64,000 bases of DNA from positions 1-64,000 of the forward strand of contig NZ_AMXE01000008.1 in NCBI RefSeq assembly GCF_000310205.1, written 5' to 3'. Positions 2 to 9,437 of this stretch are shown piece after piece. The notes under the pieces were generated by a model. It made no database searches. It was given only the letters and a program-made list of their open reading frames with translations, and was not told the origin of the DNA. The translations under genes were made by a program, and so were the position numbers. The number at the start of each line of letters is the position of its first letter. The first letter of the stretch is position 1. This stretch comes from Thauera linaloolentis 47Lol = DSM 12138. GTDB taxonomy: Bacteria; Pseudomonadota; Gammaproteobacteria; Burkholderiales; Rhodocyclaceae.

Positions 2-1615
2 GCTGCGCTGCCATTGCCCGGCGCGGACAGCGCGGCGCTGGCCAGCCGCGACGAGCGCAGCGGCCCCGCGCGCGTGCCGGGGCGCTTAGAGTCGGCCGGT
101 TGGATCACCCGCAGCGCGATGTGCGCCGAGCCGCGCGGCGGTCTGCTGCACCTCTTCATGCCGCCCACCGCGGCGCTGGAGGATTATCTCGAGATCGTCG
201 CCGCGGTCGAGGCCACGGCCGAGGAGTTCGCGCTGCCGGTCGTGCTCGAAGGCTACGAGCCGCCGTCCGACCCGCGCCTGTCGCACTTCCGCATCACCCC
301 CGACCCCGGCGTGGTCGAGGTCAACATCCACCCGGCCGGCTCCTGGGACGAACTGGTCGAGCGCACCACGACGCTCTACGACGAGGCCCGCCAGTCGCGC
401 CTGTCGACCGAGAAGTTCATGCTCGACGGCCGCCACACCGGCACCGGCGGCGGCAACCACTTCGTCCTCGGCGGCGCCACGCCGGGGGATTCGCCCTTCC
501 TGCGCCGGCCCGACCTGCTGCGCAGCCTGGTGAGCTACTGGCACAACCATCCCAGCCTGTCCTACCTGTTCTCCGGCCTGTTCATCGGCCCCACTTCGCA
601 GGCGCCGCGCGTCGACGAGGCGCGCCACGACTCGGTGCATGAGCTGGAAGTCGCCTTCCAGCAGTTCCCTGACCCCGGCGTGCAGGTGCCGCCCTGGCTG
701 ATCGACCGCCTGCTGCGCAACCTGCTGATCGACGCCACCGGCAACACCCATCGCGCCGAGTTCTGCATCGACAAGCTCTACAGCCCGGACGGCCCCACCG
801 GCCGCCTCGGCCTGCTGGAACTGCGTGCGTTCGAGATGCCGCCGCATGCGCGCATGAGCCTGGCGCAGCAACTGCTGCTGCGCGCGCTGATCGCCCGCTT
901 CTGGCGGCGGCCCTACGCGCCGGATCGCCTGCGGCGCTGGGGTACCGAGCTGCACGACCGCTTCCTGCTGCCGCACTGGGTGGCGGAGGACTTCCGCGAC
1001 GTCATCGACGAACTGCGCGAATCCGGCTACCCGGTCGAATTCGGCTGGTTCGCGCCGCATTTCGAGTTCCGCTTCCCGAAGTACGGCGAGTTCGCCGCGC
1101 GCGGCGTGCAGGTCGAACTGCGCATGGCGCTCGAACCGTGGAACGTGATGGGCGAGGAGGGTGGCGCCGGCGGCACGGTGCGCTACGTCGATTCCTCGGT
1201 GGAGCGCCTGCAGGTCAAGGTCAGCGGCCTCAACGACGACCGCCACGTGCTGAGCTGCAACGGCCGCGCCGTGCCCCTGCAGCCGACCGGCGTGGCGGGC
1301 GAGTTCGTCGCCGGCGTGCGCTACCGCGCATGGCAGCCGCCGTCCTGCCTGCACCCGACGATCGGCGTGCATGCGCCGCTCGCCTTCGATCTCGTCGATG
1401 GCTGGATGCAGCGCTCGATGGGCGGCTGCGTGTATCACGTCGCCCATCCGGGCGGGCGCAACTACGAAGCCTACCCGGTCAATCCGTACGAGGCCGAAGG
1501 GCGGCGCCTGGCGCGCTTCGCCGCCACCGGCCATACGCCGGGCCGCATCGCGCCCGTGCCGGCCGAGCGCAATGCCGACTTCCCCTTCACCCTCGACCTG
1601 CGCCGCCAGGGCTGA
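2..1615 (+). CDS. Transglutaminase/DUF2126 family protein, C-terminal part (partial)
   Basis: The frame is open from base 2, so the 5' end lies outside the window; about 537 codons remain. Complete members are ~1,100 residues, with an N-terminal transglutaminase-like domain and a C-terminal DUF2126 domain. The visible part is the DUF2126 half (for example [14 protein letters not shown] and the stretch around [13 protein letters not shown]-like residues in its first third). The biochemical role of DUF2126 is not established; the family is known to travel with ATP-grasp, alpha-E and Anbu genes and is thought to act with them in making or cutting peptide conjugates. It ends 7 nt before the ATP-grasp/alpha-E fusion gene and is probably cotranscribed with it. 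Confidence 0.88.
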
Positions 1616-1622
1616 ATCGGCC

Positions 1623-4295
1623 ATGCAGGTCCAGCCGCAACATCCGCCCGAGCTGCTCGCCCGCTATGCCGCGCGGCCGGACCGCTACGACGAACTGTGC
1701 CAGCGCATCGGCAGCGTCGTGGTGGTGCGGCCGCACTGGCGAGATTTCTTCCAGCGCCTGGCCGCCATGCCGCCGGCCGAGACGGCGGCGCGGCGGGCGA
1801 CCTTGCGCCGCCAGGTGCACGAGAACGGCATCACCTACAACGTGTATGCCGATCCGCGCGGCTTCGAGCGGCCGTGGGACCTCGACCTGCTGCCCTATAT
1901 CCTGCCGGCGGCGGAATGGGCGCAGATCGAGGTCGCCGTCATCCAGCGCGCGACGCTGTTCAACCTCATCCTTGCCGACCTCTACGGCGAGCAGGCCCTG
2001 CTGCAGCGCGGCCTGATCCCGCCCGCGCTGATTTACGGTCACAGCGGCTTCCTGCGGCCGCTGGTGGGCGTGAAGCAGCCGCGCGACCTGTTCCTGCACC
2101 TGTATGCGGTGGATCTGGCGCGCTCTCCCGACGGTCGCTGGTGGGTGGTGGCCGACCGTACGCAGGCGCCGTCCGGCGCCGGCTACGCGCTGGAGAACCG
2201 CGGCGTGGTCGCGCGCGCACTGCCCGAGCTGTACCGCGCGGCCGGTGCGCAGCCGCTGGTGCCTTTCTTCGAGGGCTTCCGCGACAGCCTCGCCGCGCTG
2301 GCGCCGTCCGGCGCGGCGGACGATGGCGAAGGGAACGGCGAAGGCGCGGCGCCGCTGATCGTGGTGCTGACCCCCGGGCCGTACAACGAGACCTACTTCG
2401 AGCACGCCTTCCTCGCCCGCGAGTTGGGCTTCCCGCTGGTCGAGGGGCAGGACCTGACCGTGCGCGACGAGAGGGTTTTCCTGCGCACGCTCGACGGCCT
2501 GCGCCGGGTGCACGTCATCCTGCGCCGGGTGGACGACATCTGGTGCGACCCGCTGGAGCTGCGCGACGATTCGGCGCTGGGCGTGGCCGGGCTGGTGGCG
2601 GCGGTGCGCGCGGGCGGGGTCACGGTTGCGAACGCGCTCGGCAGCGGCATCCTCGAAACCGGGGCGCTGCTGGGCTACCTGCCGCGCCTGGCCGAGCACC
2701 TGCTGGGGCAGAAGCTGAAGATGCCGTCGGTGGCGACCTGGTGGTGCGGCGAGAAGGCAGCCTGTGCCTATGCGCTGGCGCACCTGCGCGAACTGGTGGT
2801 CAAGCCCGCCTACCCGGCCATGCGCGGCGGCCCCGTGTTCTGCCGCGACCTGCCGGCGGCCGAGCTCGCTGCGCTGGCCGCGCGCATCGCCGAACGGCCT
2901 TTCGAGTTCGTCGCGCAGGAAATGGTCAACATCTCGCAGGCGCCGGTGCTGGCCGACGACGCCGATGCGCGGCGCGGGCTGGTGGCGCGCAACATCGGCC
3001 TGCGCGTGTTCGTCGCCGCGTCGCCCGACGGGTTCCGCGTGATGCCGGGCGGCCTCGTCCGCGTCGCGCCCGAGAGCGACATGCGCGTGGTGTCGATGCA
3101 GCAGGGCGGCGGCAGCAAGGATGCATGGGTGCTGAGCGACACCGCGTCCGTGGCGCGCCGGCCGGTGCCGGCGGTGCCGGGCCAGATCGCGCCGCGCGAG
3201 CGCAGCATGCCGGTGCCCGGCCTGGCGAGCCGGGTGGCCGAGAACTTCTTCTGGCTCGGCCGCTACAGCGAGCGCGCCGACAGCGCGGCGCGCCTGGGGC
3301 GGGAGACCCTGCGCCGGCTCGGCGGCCTGGCGGAACTGGAGCATCCGGCGGCCGAGGCGCCGGACGATGCGGACGGGCCGTGGGCGACGCCGACGCTGGC
3401 GGCGCTGGCCAGCCTGTGCCAGCGCTGTGGCCTGCGCCTGTCCCCGCCGGAGGACGAGGCGGACGAGGCCGTGCCGGACGCATCGCCGCCGCCCGCCGGA
3501 CGTCCGCCGGGCACCGAGTGCGGCATCGAACTGCTGGCCGGCGCCTTGTTCGACGCGCGCCACAGCGGCAGCGTGGTGGCCAACCTGCGCGGGGTGCTGC
3601 GCCTGGCGTCGCAACTGCGCGACCGCCTGTCGCCCGACAGCTGGCGCATCTACAACCGGCTGGCGGAGTTCGCCGCGCCCGTGCCCGCCGCGCCTGGCCT
3701 GGGCGAGGCGATGCAGCGGCTGGATGAGTCGCTGCTGTCGCTGGTGACCTTGTCGGGCTTCGTCATCGAGAGCATGCCGCGCGATGCTGGCTGGCGCTTC
3801 CTGTCGATCGGCCGGCGCATCGAACGCCTGCAGTTCCTGACCTCGGCGCTGTCCGCCCTGCTGCCGGTGCCCGAGCCGGGCGCGCTGGAGGCGCTGCTGG
3901 CGGTCACCGACGGCGAGGTCCGCTACCGCAGCCGCAACACGCGCGGGCTCGCGCCGCGGCCGGTCGCCGAACTGGTGATGTTCGATTCCGACAATCCGCG
4001 CGCATTGCGCTACCAGATCGAGTCGCTGGTCGGGCACGTCGCCCGCCTGCCGGATGGCAGGGCGCTGGGCGAACCCTTGCAGGCTCTGCTGGCCGAACTG
4101 GATGCCGAGCGCCACTGCGCCTGCCTCGACGACCTGTCGCTCGACCCTGCGCAGCCGGCCGCGCGCGAGGCGCGCGAAGCCGTCGGGTCCTTGCTGGGGC
4201 GCATCTGGGGGGCGGGCAACGCCCTGGCCGACGCGGTCTCGCACCGCTACTTCACCCACCTGGATGCGCGCAGCCATGCAACCGCCTCGCGCTGA
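1623..4295 (+). CDS. Circularly permuted ATP-grasp + alpha-E domain fusion protein
   Basis: An 890-residue two-part protein. Residues ~1-480 are a circularly permuted ATP-grasp amidoligase-like domain (DUF404/DUF407 type; YNETYFEHAF motif near residue 254). Residues ~535-890 are an alpha-E helical domain (SRVAENFFWLGRYSERAD). The ATP-binding loop that reads HGAGGYG in the stand-alone paralogue downstream reads AYPAMRGGPVF here, so this ATP-grasp half may differ in activity. An acidic, proline-rich insert (roughly residues 580-640) interrupts the alpha-E part. ATG 1623 is chosen over an upstream in-frame start because it lies 7 nt after the preceding stop. Known family inference: peptide-bond-type ligation; the substrate is unknown. 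Confidence 0.9.
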   Translation: MQVQPQHPPELLARYAARPDRYDELCQRIGSVVVVRPHWRDFFQRLAAMPPAETAARRATLRRQVHENGITYNVYADPRGFERPWDLDLLPYILPAAEWAQIEVAVIQRATLFNLILADLYGEQALLQRGLIPPALIYGHSGFLRPLVGVKQPRDLFLHLYAVDLARSPDGRWWVVADRTQAPSGAGYALENRGVVARALPELYRAAGAQPLVPFFEGFRDSLAALAPSGAADDGEGNGEGAAPLIVVLTPGPYNETYFEHAFLARELGFPLVEGQDLTVRDERVFLRTLDGLRRVHVILRRVDDIWCDPLELRDDSALGVAGLVAAVRAGGVTVANALGSGILETGALLGYLPRLAEHLLGQKLKMPSVATWWCGEKAACAYALAHLRELVVKPAYPAMRGGPVFCRDLPAAELAALAARIAERPFEFVAQEMVNISQAPVLADDADARRGLVARNIGLRVFVAASPDGFRVMPGGLVRVAPESDMRVVSMQQGGGSKDAWVLSDTASVARRPVPAVPGQIAPRERSMPVPGLASRVAENFFWLGRYSERADSAARLGRETLRRLGGLAELEHPAAEAPDDADGPWATPTLAALASLCQRCGLRLSPPEDEADEAVPDASPPPAGRPPGTECGIELLAGALFDARHSGSVVANLRGVLRLASQLRDRLSPDSWRIYNRLAEFAAPVPAAPGLGEAMQRLDESLLSLVTLSGFVIESMPRDAGWRFLSIGRRIERLQFLTSALSALLPVPEPGALEALLAVTDGEVRYRSRNTRGLAPRPVAELVMFDSDNPRALRYQIESLVGHVARLPDGRALGEPLQALLAELDAERHCACLDDLSLDPAQPAAREAREAVGSLLGRIWGAGNALADAVSHRYFTHLDARSHATASR

Positions 4296-4329: not shown

Positions 4330-5268
4330 ATGCAGTTCTACGAGATCACCCACGACACCACCTACCGCTATGCCAGCCCGGTCCTGCTGTCGCAGCAGAT
4401 CGCCCACCTGAGCCCGCGCGCGATGCCGCGCCAGCGCCTGTGCGGGCATCGCCTCACGATCGCGCCGCAGCCGTCCACGCGCAGCGAGCGGCTGGATTTC
4501 TTCGGCAACCCGACGACCCGCTTCGGCCTCTACATGCCGCACGAGCTGCTTTGCGTGCAGGCAGTGAGCCATGTCGGCGTGCACGCCCGGGACTGGCCCG
4601 AAGCCGCGCGCAGCCTGCCGTGGGAAGCCGCGCGCGACCATCTGCGCGATGCGCTGTCGGGCCACGCGCCGCTGCAGGCCGACGCGCGGGACGCCGGGCA
4701 GTACCGCTTCGCCTCGCCCTTCGTCGCGCTCGGCGCCGAAACGGCGATCTATGCCGCGTATGCGGCGCGCTGCTTCAGGCCGTGGCGCCCCTTGCTGGAG
4801 GCGGTGCAGGCCTTGTCGGCGCTGATCCACGCCGAGTTCCGCTTCGACCCGGCGGCGACCAGCGTCGCCACGCCGGTGGCCGAGGTCTTCGCCGAGCGCC
4901 ACGGGGTGTGCCAGGACTTCTCCCACATGATGATCGCCTGCCTGCGAGCGCTGGGCCTGGCGGCGCGCTATGTGTCCGGCTACCTGCTCACCGAGCCGCC
5001 GCCCGGGCAGCCGCGGCTGGTTGGTGCCGATGCGTCCCATGCCTGGGTCGCGGTGTGGTGCCCGGGCATGGGCTGGGTCGAGTTCGACCCCACCAACGAC
5101 GTGCAGCCGGGCCTGGGCCACATCACACTGGCCTGGGGGCGCGATTACGGCGACGTGTGCCCGCTGCGCGGGGTGATCCTGGGCGGAGCCAGCCATGCCG
5201 TGGACGTCGCGGTGACGGTAATGCCGGTGGAGGAGGGGAGATGCGGCGACTTGCACGCACCACGATGA
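4330..5268 (+). CDS. Transglutaminase-like cysteine protease family protein
   Basis: 312 residues. An N-terminal beta domain (MQFYEITHDTTYRY) is followed by a papain-like transglutaminase core with the full triad visible: Cys194 (HGVCQDFSHMM), His237 (ASHAWVAV) and Asp253 (EFDPTND). It probably cleaves or transfers peptide amide bonds rather than cross-linking proteins. An alternative ATG at 4276 would overlap the upstream gene by 20 nt; 4330 matches the usual N terminus of the family. It is the last gene of the first block of the locus, and a 129-nt gap carrying an NtrC/sigma-54 promoter follows. Confidence 0.9.
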   Translation: MQFYEITHDTTYRYASPVLLSQQIAHLSPRAMPRQRLCGHRLTIAPQPSTRSERLDFFGNPTTRFGLYMPHELLCVQAVSHVGVHARDWPEAARSLPWEAARDHLRDALSGHAPLQADARDAGQYRFASPFVALGAETAIYAAYAARCFRPWRPLLEAVQALSALIHAEFRFDPAATSVATPVAEVFAERHGVCQDFSHMMIACLRALGLAARYVSGYLLTEPPPGQPRLVGADASHAWVAVWCPGMGWVEFDPTNDVQPGLGHITLAWGRDYGDVCPLRGVILGGASHAVDVAVTVMPVEEGRCGDLHAPR

Positions 5269-5291
5269 TGCATCGGATGCCAAGCTGGTGC

Positions 5292-5306
5292 GCACCAGCG
5301 CGGTGC
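5292..5306 (+). promoter_or_regulatory. NtrC-type enhancer site
   Basis: GCACC-N5-GGTGC, a perfect inverted repeat matching the half-sites of classical NtrC sites. An extra half-site GGTGC directly abuts it at 5287-5291. The centre lies about 83 bp upstream of the start predicted from the sigma-54 promoter at 5355. Assignment to NtrC is by motif only. Confidence 0.65.
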
Positions 5307-5354
5307 ACACGCGGCGATCATGCGCACGCGCCGCATTCCGTGTGGTCCGGTAAG

Positions 5355-5371
5355 TTGGCACGCTTTCTGCT
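5355..5371 (+). promoter_or_regulatory. Sigma-54 (RpoN) -24/-12 promoter
   Basis: TTGGCACG-CTTT-CTGCT, with GG and GC separated by exactly 10 nt as RpoN requires. It matches the -24 element completely and the -12 element at 4 of 5 positions. The predicted start (~5382) leaves a ~16-nt leader that is mostly the ribosome binding site GGAAGGGAG of the ATP-grasp gene at 5398. Confidence 0.8.
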
Positions 5372-5397
5372 GAGATGGCTTGGAAGGGAGTCCAACC

Positions 5398-6846
5398 ATG
5401 ATCGCAGACAGCAAAATGACCGCCGCGAAACCCTATGACGAAATGCACGCCGCCGACGGCTCGGTCCGGGCGCACTATCTCGGCTACGCCGAATGGCTGG
5501 CGGGAATACCGCGCGAGCGCATCGAACGCAAGCGCAGCGAGGCCGACGTCGCCTTTCACCGCGTCGGCATCACCTTCAACGTGTATGGCGCCGAGGGGGG
5601 CAAGGAGCGCCTGATTCCATTCGATCTGCTGCCGCGCATCATCCCGGGCGACGAATGGACGGCGCTGGAGGCCGGCCTGCGCCAGCGCGTGAAGGCGCTC
5701 AACGCCTTTCTCGCCGACATCTACCACGGCCAGGAGATCCTGCGCGCGGGCCGCATCCCCGCCGACCAGGTGCTGAACAACGCCCAGTTCCGCACCGAGA
5801 TGAAGGGCGTGGACGTGCCCGGCGGGCTGTACGCGATGATCGCCGGCATCGACCTGGTGCGGGCGGCGGGCGCGGACGGCAAGGGCGAGTACTACGTGCT
5901 GGAGGACAACCTGCGCGTGCCCTCGGGGGTCAGCTACCTGATCGAGAACCGCAAGATGATGATGCGGCTGTTCCCCGACCTGTTCTCGCGCTACCGCGTG
6001 CAGCCGGTGGAGCACTACCCCGACCTGCTGCTGGAAACCCTGCGCGCCGTGGCGCCGGCCGGCGTGCTCGACCCCACCGCCGTGCTGCTGACGCCGGGTG
6101 CCTACAACAGCGCGTATTTCGAGCACAGCTTCCTCGCCCAGCAGATGGGCGTCGAGCTGGTCGAAGGGCAGGATCTGTTCGTCGACGACGACACGGTCTG
6201 GATGCGCACCACGCAGGGGCCGCGGCGGGTCGATGTCATTTATCGCCGGCTCGACGACGATTTCCTCGATCCGCAGGTGTTCCGCCCCGATTCCATGCTC
6301 GGCGTGCCCGGACTGATGTCGGCCTACCGCGCGGGCCGGGTGACGCTGGCCAACGCCGTCGGCACCGGCGTCGCCGACGACAAGTCGATCTACCCCTACG
6401 TGCCGGAGATGGTGCGCTTCTACCTGGGCGAGGCGCCCATCCTCAACAACGTGCCCACCTACATGCTGCGCGAGAAGGACGACCTGGCCTACGTGCTCGA
6501 CCACCTGCCCGAGCTGGTGGTGAAGGAAGTTCATGGCGCAGGCGGCTACGGCATGCTCGTCGGGCCGGCCGCGACCCGCGCCGAGATCGAGCATTTCCGC
6601 CAGCTCATCGTCGCTGCGCCGGAAAAGTACATCGCCCAGCCGACGCTGTCGCTGTCGACCTGTCCGACTTTCGTCGAGGCCGGCATCGCGCCGCGCCACA
6701 TCGACCTGCGCCCCTTCGTGCTGTCGGGCGGCAAGGAAATCCGCATGGTGCCCGGCGGCCTCACCCGGGTGGCGATGCAGGCCGGCTCGCTGGTGGTGAA
6801 CTCATCGCAGGGCGGGGGCACCAAGGACACCTGGGTCGTCGGCTGA
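5398..6846 (+). CDS. Circularly permuted ATP-grasp protein (DUF404/DUF407)
   Basis: 482 residues, a stand-alone version of the ATP-grasp half of the fusion at 1623. Visible landmarks: ITFNVYGAEGGKERLIPFD near the N terminus, YNSAYFEHSFLAQQMG in the middle, and an intact glycine-rich loop VVKEVHGAGGYGMLVGP near residue 380. It belongs to the amidoligase-like ATP-grasp families thought to make peptide or peptide-tag bonds; the substrate is unknown. ATG 5398 is chosen because GGAAGGGAG sits 7 nt upstream; a TTG at 5380 is also in frame but would lie at the predicted transcription start. First gene of the RpoN-controlled block. Confidence 0.92.
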   Translation: MIADSKMTAAKPYDEMHAADGSVRAHYLGYAEWLAGIPRERIERKRSEADVAFHRVGITFNVYGAEGGKERLIPFDLLPRIIPGDEWTALEAGLRQRVKALNAFLADIYHGQEILRAGRIPADQVLNNAQFRTEMKGVDVPGGLYAMIAGIDLVRAAGADGKGEYYVLEDNLRVPSGVSYLIENRKMMMRLFPDLFSRYRVQPVEHYPDLLLETLRAVAPAGVLDPTAVLLTPGAYNSAYFEHSFLAQQMGVELVEGQDLFVDDDTVWMRTTQGPRRVDVIYRRLDDDFLDPQVFRPDSMLGVPGLMSAYRAGRVTLANAVGTGVADDKSIYPYVPEMVRFYLGEAPILNNVPTYMLREKDDLAYVLDHLPELVVKEVHGAGGYGMLVGPAATRAEIEHFRQLIVAAPEKYIAQPTLSLSTCPTFVEAGIAPRHIDLRPFVLSGGKEIRMVPGGLTRVAMQAGSLVVNSSQGGGTKDTWVVG

Positions 6847-6901
6847 GCCCGGGCCGAATCCTGTATCCGCATCCGTATCCGATCACGCTGGGAGAACGAC
6901 C

Positions 6902-7849
6902 ATGCTGAGCCGCACCGCCGACCACCTCTACTGGATGGCGCGCTACACCGAGCGCGCGGAAAACACCGTGCGCATGCTCGACGTTTCGTACCGCATGTCG
7001 CTGCTGCCGCGCAACAACGGCAACGGCGACGATGGCTGGGGCGCGATCCTCGCGATCAGCGAACTGACCGAGGCATTCGCCCGCAGCGGCCGGCCGCTGA
7101 GCGCGCGCGACGTCATCGATTTCGTCGTGCTCGACCGCGGCAACCCGTCGAGCGTGTGGAACTGCCTGCGCGCGGCGCGCGAGAACGCGCACGCGGTGCG
7201 CGGCACGCTGACCGCGGAGATGTGGGAAACCACCAACGCCACCTGGCTCGAGATCCGCGACATGACGCCCGAGAAGCTGCAGGCGACCGACCTGGGCGAA
7301 TTCTTCGAATGGGTCAAGTTCCGCTCCCACCTGCTGCGTGGCGTCACCTTCGGCACCATGCTGCACGACGACGCCTTCCAGTTCGTGCGCCTGGGGACCT
7401 TCCTGGAGCGCGCCGACAACACCGCGCGCCTGCTCGACGTGAAGTACCACAGCTTGTTGCCGCAGCACGAAAGCCCGACCGGCACCACCGACTACTACCA
7501 GTGGGGCGCGCTGCTGCGCTCGGTGTCGGCGTTCGAGACCTACCGCCATGTGTATCGCGACGTCATCACCCCCTACAAGGTGGCCGAGCTGCTGATCCTC
7601 AACGACGCCATGCCGCGCTCGTTGCACGCCTGCGTCGACGAGGTCAACGACATCCTCGGCCAGATCGCCAACCTGCACTCGGCCGAGGCCGCGCGCCAGG
7701 CCGGCGAACTGCACGCCGCACTGCACTACGGCCGCATGGACGACATCTTCGAGACCGGCCTGCACCCTTGGCTCGAACGCTTCCTGGAGCGCATCAACCG
7801 CTTGGGGGACCGCATCGGCGACAACTTTCTCGTTCCGGTTGCCGCCTGA
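6902..7849 (+). CDS. Alpha-E domain-containing protein (DUF403)
   Basis: 315 residues, all-helical alpha-E family, starting MLSRTADHLYWMARYTERAEN. It pairs with the ATP-grasp protein encoded 55 nt upstream, as the two halves are fused in the gene at 1623. The family is found almost only beside such ATP-grasp and transglutaminase genes and its activity is not established. A GGAG ribosome binding site precedes the ATG. Probably cotranscribed with the ATP-grasp and Anbu genes. Confidence 0.92.
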   Translation: MLSRTADHLYWMARYTERAENTVRMLDVSYRMSLLPRNNGNGDDGWGAILAISELTEAFARSGRPLSARDVIDFVVLDRGNPSSVWNCLRAARENAHAVRGTLTAEMWETTNATWLEIRDMTPEKLQATDLGEFFEWVKFRSHLLRGVTFGTMLHDDAFQFVRLGTFLERADNTARLLDVKYHSLLPQHESPTGTTDYYQWGALLRSVSAFETYRHVYRDVITPYKVAELLILNDAMPRSLHACVDEVNDILGQIANLHSAEAARQAGELHAALHYGRMDDIFETGLHPWLERFLERINRLGDRIGDNFLVPVAA

Positions 7850-7922
7850 ACGATTCGTGGCGCCGCCCCCGGCCGGGGTGTCGGAGCGCGGCGCCGAGCA
7901 ATGACCCGACAGGACCGCCTGC

Positions 7923-8735
7923 ATGACCTATTGCGTTGCGATGTGCCTCGACGAGGGGCTTGTCTGTCTGTCCGACTCCCGCACCAACGCGGGCGTCGAC
8001 CACATCAACACCTTCCGCAAGATGACCGTCTTCGAGCGCGCCGGCGACCGCGTGCTGGTACTGATGGGCGCTGGCAACCTCGCCATCACCCAGGCGGTCA
8101 TCAACATCCTGCGCGAGCATGCCGCGGTGCAGGACCGCCAGAGTCTGTGGAACGCGCCGACGATGTTCGAGTGCGCGCGCCTGGTGGGCGACACCATCCG
8201 CCGCGTGCACCAGCGCGACGCCGAGGCGCTGCAGCAGTTCGGCGTCGACTTCAACGCGTCCTTCATCCTGTGCGGGCAGATCGCCGACGAGCCGCCGCGG
8301 CTGTTCAACATCTATGCCGCCGGCAACTTCATCGAGGCTTCGTGCGACACGCCCTATTTCCAGATCGGAGAATCCAAGTACGGCAAGCCCATCCTCGACC
8401 GCGTCGTCCATTGCCGAACCTCGCTCGACGAGGCCGCCAAATGCGCGCTGATCTCGATGGACTCCACGATCCGCTCGAACCTGTCGGTTGGCTTGCCGCT
8501 CGACCTGCTGATCTACAAGCGCGACAGCCTGAAGGTGGGGCGCCACGTCAGCATCGATGGCGACAACCCCTATTTCGACATGATCCACAACCAGTGGGGT
8601 GCCAGCCTGCGGCGCGTTTTCGCCGAGCTGCCCGATCCTGACTGGACGACCTGGTCGAACGAGGCCGCGCCGCGCCCGTGCCTGCAGGGCGTGGGTGAGC
8701 CGGGGGTGTGCGAGCGCGCCGGCAGCGGCGCCTAG
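7923..8735 (+). CDS. anbu: Proteasome-like peptidase Anbu
   Basis: 270 residues, N-terminal-nucleophile hydrolase of the Anbu (ancestral beta subunit) family. After removal of Met1 the new N terminus is Thr1; Asp17 and Lys32 (mature numbering, from LSDSRTN and TFRKMTVFE) match the proteasome catalytic Thr/Asp/Lys set. Family structures form open helical or ring oligomers, and substrates are not settled. Position directly after the ATP-grasp and alpha-E genes is the classic Anbu context. The ~25-residue C-terminal tail beyond the fold is low in complexity. The locus likely makes and then processes a peptide modification. Confidence 0.93.
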   Translation: MTYCVAMCLDEGLVCLSDSRTNAGVDHINTFRKMTVFERAGDRVLVLMGAGNLAITQAVINILREHAAVQDRQSLWNAPTMFECARLVGDTIRRVHQRDAEALQQFGVDFNASFILCGQIADEPPRLFNIYAAGNFIEASCDTPYFQIGESKYGKPILDRVVHCRTSLDEAAKCALISMDSTIRSNLSVGLPLDLLIYKRDSLKVGRHVSIDGDNPYFDMIHNQWGASLRRVFAELPDPDWTTWSNEAAPRPCLQGVGEPGVCERAGSGA

Positions 8736-8784
8736 CAAGGCATCTTCAATCCTTGCGGGCGGGTGTAACAAAATGCTTGCCTAA

Positions 8785-8809
8785 ATTTATGTTGCAGTGC
8801 AACATAAAT
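8785..8809. promoter_or_regulatory. 25-bp palindrome in the phasin promoter region (possible PhaR operator)
   Basis: Perfect 12-nt arms ATTTATGTTGCA and TGCAACATAAAT around a single central G. The core TTGC-N3-GCAA resembles the TGC-N3-GCA half-site layout reported for PhaR, the polyhydroxybutyrate-granule repressor. It starts 71 nt upstream of the phasin ATG, with a weak TTGCCT -35-like element just before it. Protein identity is inferred from the target gene. Confidence 0.55.
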
Positions 8810-8855
8810 GCACACCACAGAACTTCTCCGGTGTCACCAGACCAAGGAGCACACC

Positions 8856-9437
8856 ATGACCGCGTCACCCGAAAAAATCCTCGCCACGTTCAAGACCACT
8901 GCCGAGGCGCGCGTCAACGACGTGTCTGCCGCCAGTGACAGCCTGTTGTCGACCGTCGAGCACCTCACCGCGTTGAACCTGAACACCACGCGTTCGATTC
9001 TCGACGACACGATCGCGTTGAGCCAGGCCGCGCTTGCCGTGCGCGATCCCAGGGCCCTGGCCGCGCTGCAGCTCGGCACCATCACCCCGGCGCTGCAGAA
9101 GGGTTTTGCCTATGCCAAGGCATTCACCAGCGTCGCCAGCCAGAGCCAGGCCGAACTGCTGAAGCTGGCCGAGGCGGGCATGTCGCAATGGCTGCAGAGC
9201 GTCATCGTGGCGCTCGAGGGCCTCAACCGCAATGTGCCGGTGGGCTCCGACCTCGCCGTCCGGGCGCTGAAGACCGCGGTGGTCAATGCATCGTCGGCCT
9301 ACGAAGGTGCGACCCAACTGGTCAAGCAGGTGTCCGAAGCCGCACAGGCCAACGTGGATCAGGCCGCCGCAGCCACGGTCGATGCGGTCAGCAAGGGCAC
9401 GACAGCCACGGCCACGCTGCTGAAGAGCGCCGCCTGA
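8856..9437 (+). CDS. Phasin family protein (PHB granule-associated)
   Basis: 193 residues of alternating amphipathic helix without signal peptide or membrane segment. It has the phasin pattern (LNLNTTRSILDDTIALSQAAL, then alanine-rich helices) and an alanine/threonine-rich C terminus. Phasins coat intracellular polyhydroxyalkanoate granules and control their size. The ATG at 8856 has an AAGGAG site 6 nt upstream; an upstream in-frame ATG at 8808 lies in the palindrome and is rejected. Followed by a strong hairpin terminator at 9529. Probably controlled by a PhaR-like repressor. Confidence 0.88.
   Translation: MTASPEKILATFKTTAEARVNDVSAASDSLLSTVEHLTALNLNTTRSILDDTIALSQAALAVRDPRALAALQLGTITPALQKGFAYAKAFTSVASQSQAELLKLAEAGMSQWLQSVIVALEGLNRNVPVGSDLAVRALKTAVVNASSAYEGATQLVKQVSEAAQANVDQAAAATVDAVSKGTTATATLLKSAA

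Follow-up and report, generated by a model that had tools for sequence, protein, structure and literature searches.

The three genes encoding a circularly permuted ATP-grasp type 2 protein, an alpha-E protein and the proteasome-like Ntn hydrolase Anbu, found in this order on one strand within the first 64,000 nucleotides of contig NZ_AMXE01000008.1 of Thauera linaloolentis 47Lol = DSM 12138 (the whole of this stretch being referred to as the window), are most probably driven by a classical NtrC-activated sigma-54 promoter, a reading to which, judging by sequence evidence, a probability of roughly 0.88 can be assigned. Control of these genes by nitrogen limitation through NtrC and sigma-54 had been proposed in a sequence-only reading of the stretch, and the proposal is supported by the conservation of the elements involved, the presence of both regulator genes in the genome, the design of the organism's own glnA promoter and the mostly agreeing expression data from relatives.

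Upstream of the ATP-grasp gene (ATG at 5398), and on the same forward strand as all the features described here, lies a sigma-54 -24/-12 element, TTGGCACGCTTTCTGCT, at 5355..5371 (the GG of its GG-N10-GC at 5357-5358 and the GC at 5369-5370), with 26 nt between it and the ATG. It is preceded, at a gap of 48 nt, by a proximal NtrC-type site, the perfect GCACC-N5-GGTGC dyad GCACCAGCGCGGTGC at 5292..5306, whose left edge is abutted by an additional GGTGC at 5287-5291, part of a TGGTGC half-site at 5286..5291. The sequence-only reading had described both the perfect dyad with its abutting half-site and the near-consensus promoter correctly, and had also placed the dyad upstream of the promoter, the distance merely being somewhat smaller than the ~60 bp it gave; what it had overlooked is a distal NtrC-type site, GCACCACGATGATGC, with 1 mismatch, at 5257..5271, 35 bp upstream of the perfect dyad. 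The usual geometry of sigma-54 promoters would put the transcription start at 5382, 12 nt past the GC of the -12 element, followed by a ribosome-binding site, AAGGGAG, at 5384..5390, the GGGAG of which is invariant in the Thauera-type alignment.

That all of this could be a matter of chance matches in GC-rich DNA is extremely unlikely, even if the individual motifs per se are not that rare: GCACC-N5-GGTGC with at most one mismatch is found 14 times in the window vs. 6.5 times expected, and a sigma-54 score of at least 13 precedes about 2% of other open reading frames (ORFs). Speaking against coincidence are the uniqueness of the motif combination in the genome, its conservation far above both sets of controls and the fact that the alignment positions without any variation mostly coincide with the motifs and the ribosome-binding site. 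Within the 64-kb window, TTGGCACGCTTTCTGCT is the sole mismatch-free match to TGGCACGNNNNNTGCW, and, as matches with up to two mismatches are rarer than expected by chance (38 observed vs. 59.6 expected), only the exact match is informative. Across the 4.2-Mb genome, the perfect GCACC-N5-GGTGC occurs at 38 places vs. 3 for the reversed control, and the combined pattern GGTGC-N35-65-TGGCAYG-N5-TGCW is found at a single place, the Anbu promoter (matched twice, owing to its two GGTGC half-sites), the control giving 0.

Both regulators are encoded by the same genome: NtrC at C52:13668-15035 (TIGR01818 above cut-off, 693.8 bits) and RpoN at C87:3836-5263 (TIGR02395 above cut-off). The promoter of glnA (identified by Pfam), downstream of which glnA, a histidine kinase gene (presumably ntrB) and the NtrC gene follow in this order, contains two perfect dyads 31 bp apart and then, after a gap of 74 nt, TTGGCACGCTTAGTGCT, and thus shares with the Anbu promoter the tandem GCACC-N5-GGTGC sites upstream of a -24/-12 element. 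The two are not identical, since one of the Anbu dyads carries a mismatch and the spacing (35 bp) and gap (48 nt) differ, but in its design, as far as can be read from the DNA, the Anbu promoter matches the Ntr promoter of the genome's own glnA.

For the assessment of conservation, 90 orthologous operons, whose carriers were picked by protein similarity and not by promoter, were scanned with cut-offs of 13 or more for the sigma-54 score and of one mismatch or none for the NtrC site. The weight matrix behind the sigma-54 scores follows the known consensus; its scores are relative, and the controls, comprising 738 upstream regions of mechanically found ORFs of at least 250 codons from the same loci (many of which may not be genes), were scored with the same matrix. 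Not included in the 90 were ATP-grasp matches starting past residue 35, L164 (on the same contig as L076) and L189 (part of L192); most of the short-flank loci L016-L074, in which the ATP-grasp start was not reached, and L166, L174 and L182 (3 of 20 regions), which have no ATP-grasp gene, were likewise left out. The elements, whose absence from orthologous loci the sequence-only reading had named as an argument against its own proposal, proved not to be lost: the sigma-54 cut-off is reached in 70/90 operons vs. 17/738 controls (2.3%) and 0.9% of 1,800 shuffles, and the NtrC cut-off in 46/90 vs. 27/738 controls (3.7%) and 2.3% of 1,800 shuffles, although these counts do not represent independent events, as many of the loci are close kin (~18 of them Paraburkholderia-like). 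An earlier count over a longer stretch had given 50/67 at a score of 14 vs. 6/550 and 1.6% of 1,340 shuffles; from an earlier promoter scan, L021 (ATP-grasp on the opposite strand) and ATP-grasp matches starting past residue 25 had been omitted.

When broken down by taxon (groups hand-assigned from record titles and kinship), sigma-54 and NtrC elements are seen in 12/12 and 12/12 of the Thauera-type operons, 14/17 and 14/17 of those from other Rhodocyclaceae, 18/22 and 5/22 from other Betaproteobacteria (nearly all Burkholderiales), 25/33 and 15/33 from Gammaproteobacteria and 1/1 and 0/1 from Acidithiobacillia. The NtrC site is perfect somewhere in the stretch in 7/12 Thauera-type upstream regions. 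In 10 Paraburkholderia-type loci, the promoter core and GCAC-N-G-N3-T-N-GCGCA are invariant in the alignment, and, as this conserved site lies beyond the one-mismatch limit in most of them, the NtrC count for this group may be too low. Conserved blocks are also apparent in the Pseudomonas and Klebsiella/Aeromonas alignments.

The invariant columns of an 11-locus Thauera-type alignment lie mostly on the distal site, TGGTGCGC (5286-5293), the -24/-12 element and the ribosome-binding site. The distal site is present in 11/11 loci (in one with a further mismatch), GCACC-N4-TGA-N-GC being invariant and the T of GATGC retained in 10/11; TGGTGCGC is likewise found in all 11, and the right half of the perfect dyad shows two mismatches in 2/11 loci and one in a third. 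A 12-bp palindrome, TGGTGCGCACCA (5286-5297), of which the TGGTGC half-site is the left half, overlaps the perfect dyad, is intact in 9/11 loci and has a left part better conserved than the dyad's right half; it may be a third NtrC contact or the site of another protein.

The fact that TGGTGCGC, and not the perfect dyad, is the best conserved piece in Thauera lends something to the view that the -24/-12 promoter is real while its activator is a different enhancer-binding protein, the dyads merely being NtrC-like, as do the 12 further genome matches of at least 280 bits to the NtrC model besides NtrC itself and the 17/22 operons of other Betaproteobacteria lacking an NtrC site within one mismatch, though 18/22 have a good sigma-54 site. 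Such an activator is nevertheless unlikely, given that a related cluster of Burkholderia cenocepacia is NtrC-dependent (PMC5491218), that a perfect dyad precedes a B. cenocepacia cluster of similar content, and that the Thauera dyads match those of the genome's own glnA promoter.

This B. cenocepacia cluster (L290, on record NZ_CP091013.1) comprises genes for ATP-grasp, alpha-E, 1.1 kb of unassigned sequence, transglutaminase-DUF2126, an ATP-grasp/alpha-E fusion and a transglutaminase, and its promoter shows a perfect dyad followed at a distance of 63 nt by AAGGCACGTTCCTTGCA. By content and order, it is a candidate for the I35_5080-5083 locus of strain H111. DUF404/DUF407 and DUF403 are earlier designations for the domains now called ATP-grasp and alpha-E, respectively. 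In the ntrC mutant of B. cenocepacia H111 under nitrogen limitation, log2 changes of -8.2 for DUF404/DUF407, -9.4 for DUF403, -9.4 for a transglutaminase-like protein and -6.0 for a large transglutaminase-like protein are given in PMC5491218, where I35_5080-83 is named as a common target of sigma-54 and NtrC. The likeness to Thauera consists in the gene families, the ATP-grasp, alpha-E and transglutaminase genes of B. cenocepacia being strongly NtrC- and sigma-54-dependent when nitrogen is limiting (PMC5491218), and in the promoter design, the difference being that the B. cenocepacia genes appear to lie behind one promoter, whereas in Thauera there are sites before each block.

The same gene families (Anbu, transglutaminase, alpha-E and ATP-grasp) make up PP_2685-PP_2688 of Pseudomonas putida KT2440, an operon that includes a transglutaminase, which in Thauera closes the adjacent block instead. 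In published data, PP_2685 and PP_2688 show log2 changes of 4.4 and 4.0 on nitrate vs. ammonium (PMC8050072), and PP2685-2687 are up (PMC3325844). Control of the operon by NtrB/NtrC has been proposed (PMC7801951), and nitrogen-induction data are cited in the two Anbu structure papers as well (PMC5666114, PMC6376114). As nitrogen control has already been published in Pseudomonas, the regulatory claim as such is not new. In the corresponding stretch, five Pseudomonas loci from species other than P. putida show a -24/-12 site together with an NtrC-like site carrying no more than one mismatch.

Several results, however, weigh against NtrC/sigma-54 control of the Anbu operon, at least for some of its carriers. 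Under nitrogen limitation, PP_2686-2688 were induced 11 to 15-fold in the wild type and 14 to 20-fold in the rpoN mutant, and PP_2685, i.e., Anbu, only 1.12-fold in the wild type (PMC7801951 Table 2), meaning that an unchanged induction in the absence of RpoN, which the sequence-only reading had also named as an argument against its proposal, is in fact seen in one P. putida dataset. Since urtA-D (9.9 to 20-fold in the wild type and 6.9 to 16.7-fold in the rpoN mutant) and nasA (14.6 and 12.4, respectively) were still induced in that mutant as well (PMC7801951), the mutant data are doubtful and carry less weight here, yet they remain a direct contrary result. Moderate constitutive expression has also been described for relatives in the accessible part of PMC5666114, and this, along with the surviving induction and the stop of the upstream transglutaminase gene a mere 129 nt before the ATP-grasp start, would be expected if expression were mainly constitutive and of sigma-70 type, or were due to read-through from the upstream block, with the sigma-54 site being minor. 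Such an arrangement seems quite unlikely, given how strongly the sigma-54 element is conserved in Beta- and Gammaproteobacteria; a consensus scan of 5150-9000 also found no sigma-70-like promoter, a weak argument given the shuffle mean of 0.3.

The B. cenocepacia evidence has a contrary side, too. The L290 cluster is paralogous (its ATP-grasp is 58% identical) and contains no Anbu, and the actual Anbu operon on the same record (L190, NZ_CP091013.1), whose ATP-grasp is 71% identical to that of the window, has no NtrC site even when one mismatch is allowed, and its sigma-54 score is just 11.6, at -239. With the mutant data coming from an Anbu-less paralogue (PMC5491218) and L190 being devoid of the elements, these data support nitrogen control of the enzyme family and not that of the Anbu operon of this species. 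One replicon thus carries an Anbu operon without sigma-54/NtrC elements and an Anbu-less paralogue with both, and Ntr control seems to have gone to one of the B. cenocepacia copies. Furthermore, none of the five alphaproteobacterial operons reaches either cut-off (sigma-54 0/5, with a best score of 12.2; NtrC 0/5), and an NtrC site with at most one mismatch is absent from 17/22 operons of other Betaproteobacteria, 18/33 of Gammaproteobacteria and 3/17 of other Rhodocyclaceae. Conservation holds over the orthologous promoters taken together and fails for the five alphaproteobacterial operons and L190.

With NtrC-activated transcription from the sigma-54 promoter still being the best explanation for Thauera, the following course of events can be proposed: when nitrogen becomes limiting, NtrC in its phosphorylated form would occupy both members of the tandem (5257-5271 and 5292-5306), with the half-site between them helping. 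The bound NtrC would oligomerise and loop to the sigma-54 RNA polymerase at 5355-5371, and the opening of the promoter would lead to the transcription of the three genes with a short leader from near 5382. As the adjacent block is likewise preceded by NtrC sites and by a sigma-54-like element, the whole set of amide-bond-handling enzymes would join the Ntr response. Binding, looping and induction in Thauera, as well as a service of these enzymes in nitrogen scavenging or turnover, are what we infer.

This adjacent block, lying upstream on the same strand, consists of the C-terminal part of a transglutaminase-DUF2126 protein (14..1615; the contig begins at window base 1, and a matching 5' part of the gene is found on another contig, at G000:C60:23164), an ATP-grasp/alpha-E fusion protein of 880 aa (1653..4295, by family search) and a transglutaminase-like protein of 312 aa (4330..5268, Pfam PF08379/PF01841). 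In the own genome, the block has a perfect NtrC dyad at C60:23005-23019. In the Thauera genus set (L193-L214 minus the partial L213, i.e., 21 loci), 21/21 loci have, 150-193 nt before the transglutaminase-DUF2126 frame, an NtrC-type site carrying one mismatch or none (perfect in 17), vs. 2.7% of shuffles for such a site, and GCA[CT]G-N2-TCTTGC is conserved before the frame in all 21. In the latter sigma-54-like element, the -24 GG is without its first G in 21/21 loci, an unusual departure from the consensus that is itself conserved, most of the other positions being invariant. With the full sigma-54 matrix, 0/21 loci reach 13 and 5/21 reach 11; when the first G of the -24 GG is left unscored, 21/21 reach 11 vs. 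3.5% of 1,500 shuffles. Other Rhodocyclaceae (28 loci less one too close to the contig end) have an NtrC site in 20/27 and reach the sigma-54 cut-off of 13 in 9/27. The idea that the second block is Ntr-controlled everywhere was tried and failed outside Rhodocyclaceae, with other Burkholderiales showing an NtrC site in 2/27 and sigma-54 scores of 13 or more in 6/27; in 8/27 of these other Burkholderiales loci, an Anbu gene ends less than 0.9 kb upstream of the second block, which may there share another promoter.

Independent support for a nitrogen role comes from a gene cluster on plasmid mpAca1.1 of Acidithiobacillus caldus (L192:3018-31027, NZ_CP005987.1), where genes for alpha-E, ATP-grasp, DUF2126, transglutaminase and Anbu are grouped and have as neighbors a divergent glnL-ntrC pair, glnA, two PII genes, amt, a glutamine amidotransferase and an aliphatic amidase. 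A -24/-12 element lies 72 nt before the ATP-grasp gene, and a perfect NtrC dyad is found between the divergent glnL and a second Anbu homologue, which is 43% identical (tblastn) and falls into no Pfam family. Four annotated transposases lie within the region.

As for the genes themselves, the ATP-grasp protein (482 aa, 5398..6846, Pfam PF14403/PF04174) has as its closest solved relative 3n6x, deposited as a putative glutathionylspermidine synthase, and is followed by the alpha-E protein (315 aa, 6902..7849, Pfam PF04168) and Anbu (270 aa, 7923..8735, Pfam PF00227; structures 5loy, 5lox, 5nyw, 5nyj and 5nyf), all on the forward strand. Anbu is 76-92% identical to that of named Thauera loci, and direct reading of the gene start shows Thr1, Asp17 and Lys32, matching the catalytic residues named as Thr1, Asp17 and Lys32(33) in the available part of PMC6376114. 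The same source describes a four-gene Anbu operon with a transglutaminase between alpha-E and Anbu (PMC6376114); no transglutaminase is present at this position here, there being only 73 nt between the two genes, and one lies upstream instead, at 4330-5268. The Thauera Anbu has a C-terminal extension of ~30 residues past the part matched by the solved structures (8646-8732). A possible intrinsic terminator on the forward strand after Anbu (8757..8782) is weak, as the 2 terminator-like sites in the stretch equal the shuffle mean of 2.0. Directly downstream of Anbu, at 8808-9437, there is a gene for a phasin, a polyhydroxyalkanoate (PHA) granule protein, and a phasin homologue is found downstream in 9/12 Thauera-type loci (L075-L086). 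PHA formation is linked to nitrogen limitation, so the adjacency of Anbu and phasin may be meaningful.

Whether the regulatory signal belongs to Anbu genes as such could be judged from Anbu loci without an ATP-grasp homologue, and these led to the rejection of that idea. Such a homologue is absent from 14/80 Anbu loci, two of which (L080 and L082) begin within the operon itself; in the remaining 12 (L097, L099, L100, L102, L103, L104, L109, L112, L117, L118, L144 and L148), no NtrC site with at most one mismatch is present in the 400 nt directly before Anbu, a region not necessarily corresponding to the start of any larger operon (L117 has only 1.2 kb upstream), and a sigma-54 score above 11 is seen in L097 alone (12.4). 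Anbu genes without a nearby ATP-grasp gene, to which L184, known from context alone, can be added and one of which is on Azospirillum plasmid p2, show no NtrC site where scanned and may have another role or regulation.

A promoter tells when genes act and not what their enzymes do, and protein turnover, storage and the scavenging of amines or amides are all possible. We lean toward scavenging, because nitrogen-acquisition genes are numerous among those co-regulated with or adjacent to these enzymes in B. cenocepacia and A. caldus. A tentative and, as yet, rather doubtful proposal would be that the Anbu and transglutaminase-DUF2126 blocks form one nitrogen-scavenging Ntr system, in which the ATP-grasp and DUF2126 ligases would attach nitrogen compounds, for instance amines or amides, to glutamate or to a carrier peptide. 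Cleavage of these conjugates by the transglutaminases and Anbu would then release usable nitrogen, which would make Anbu a small-conjugate hydrolase and not a protein-degrading relative of the proteasome. The gamma-glutamylation pathways for polyamines are a model for such conjugation. The proposal fits the putative glutathionylspermidine synthase label of 3n6x, the clustering in A. caldus and the lack of Anbu activity on proteasome substrates in the accessible part of PMC6376114; in the parts available, the 2017 papers identify no Anbu substrate (PMC5666114, PMC6376114).

Overall, the initial observation is correct, and its regulatory reading is well supported and, while known in kind, is confirmed and extended here by the second site, the breadth and limits of conservation, the sites preceding the second block among Rhodocyclaceae, the connection with the regulon of B. 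cenocepacia and the gene cluster of A. caldus, without any claim that these links are absent from print. NtrC is not mentioned in the two Anbu structure papers (PMC5666114, PMC6376114), nor is the proteasome or Anbu in the available portion of the B. cenocepacia NtrC paper (PMC5491218), and these two literatures, between which there is no cross-reference as far as seen, are joined here. The signs of nitrogen control extend over Beta- and Gammaproteobacteria and, in Rhodocyclaceae, to both blocks; for Anbu, often regarded as an ancestral relative of the proteasome, they point to the condition and the partner genes with which its function should be sought.

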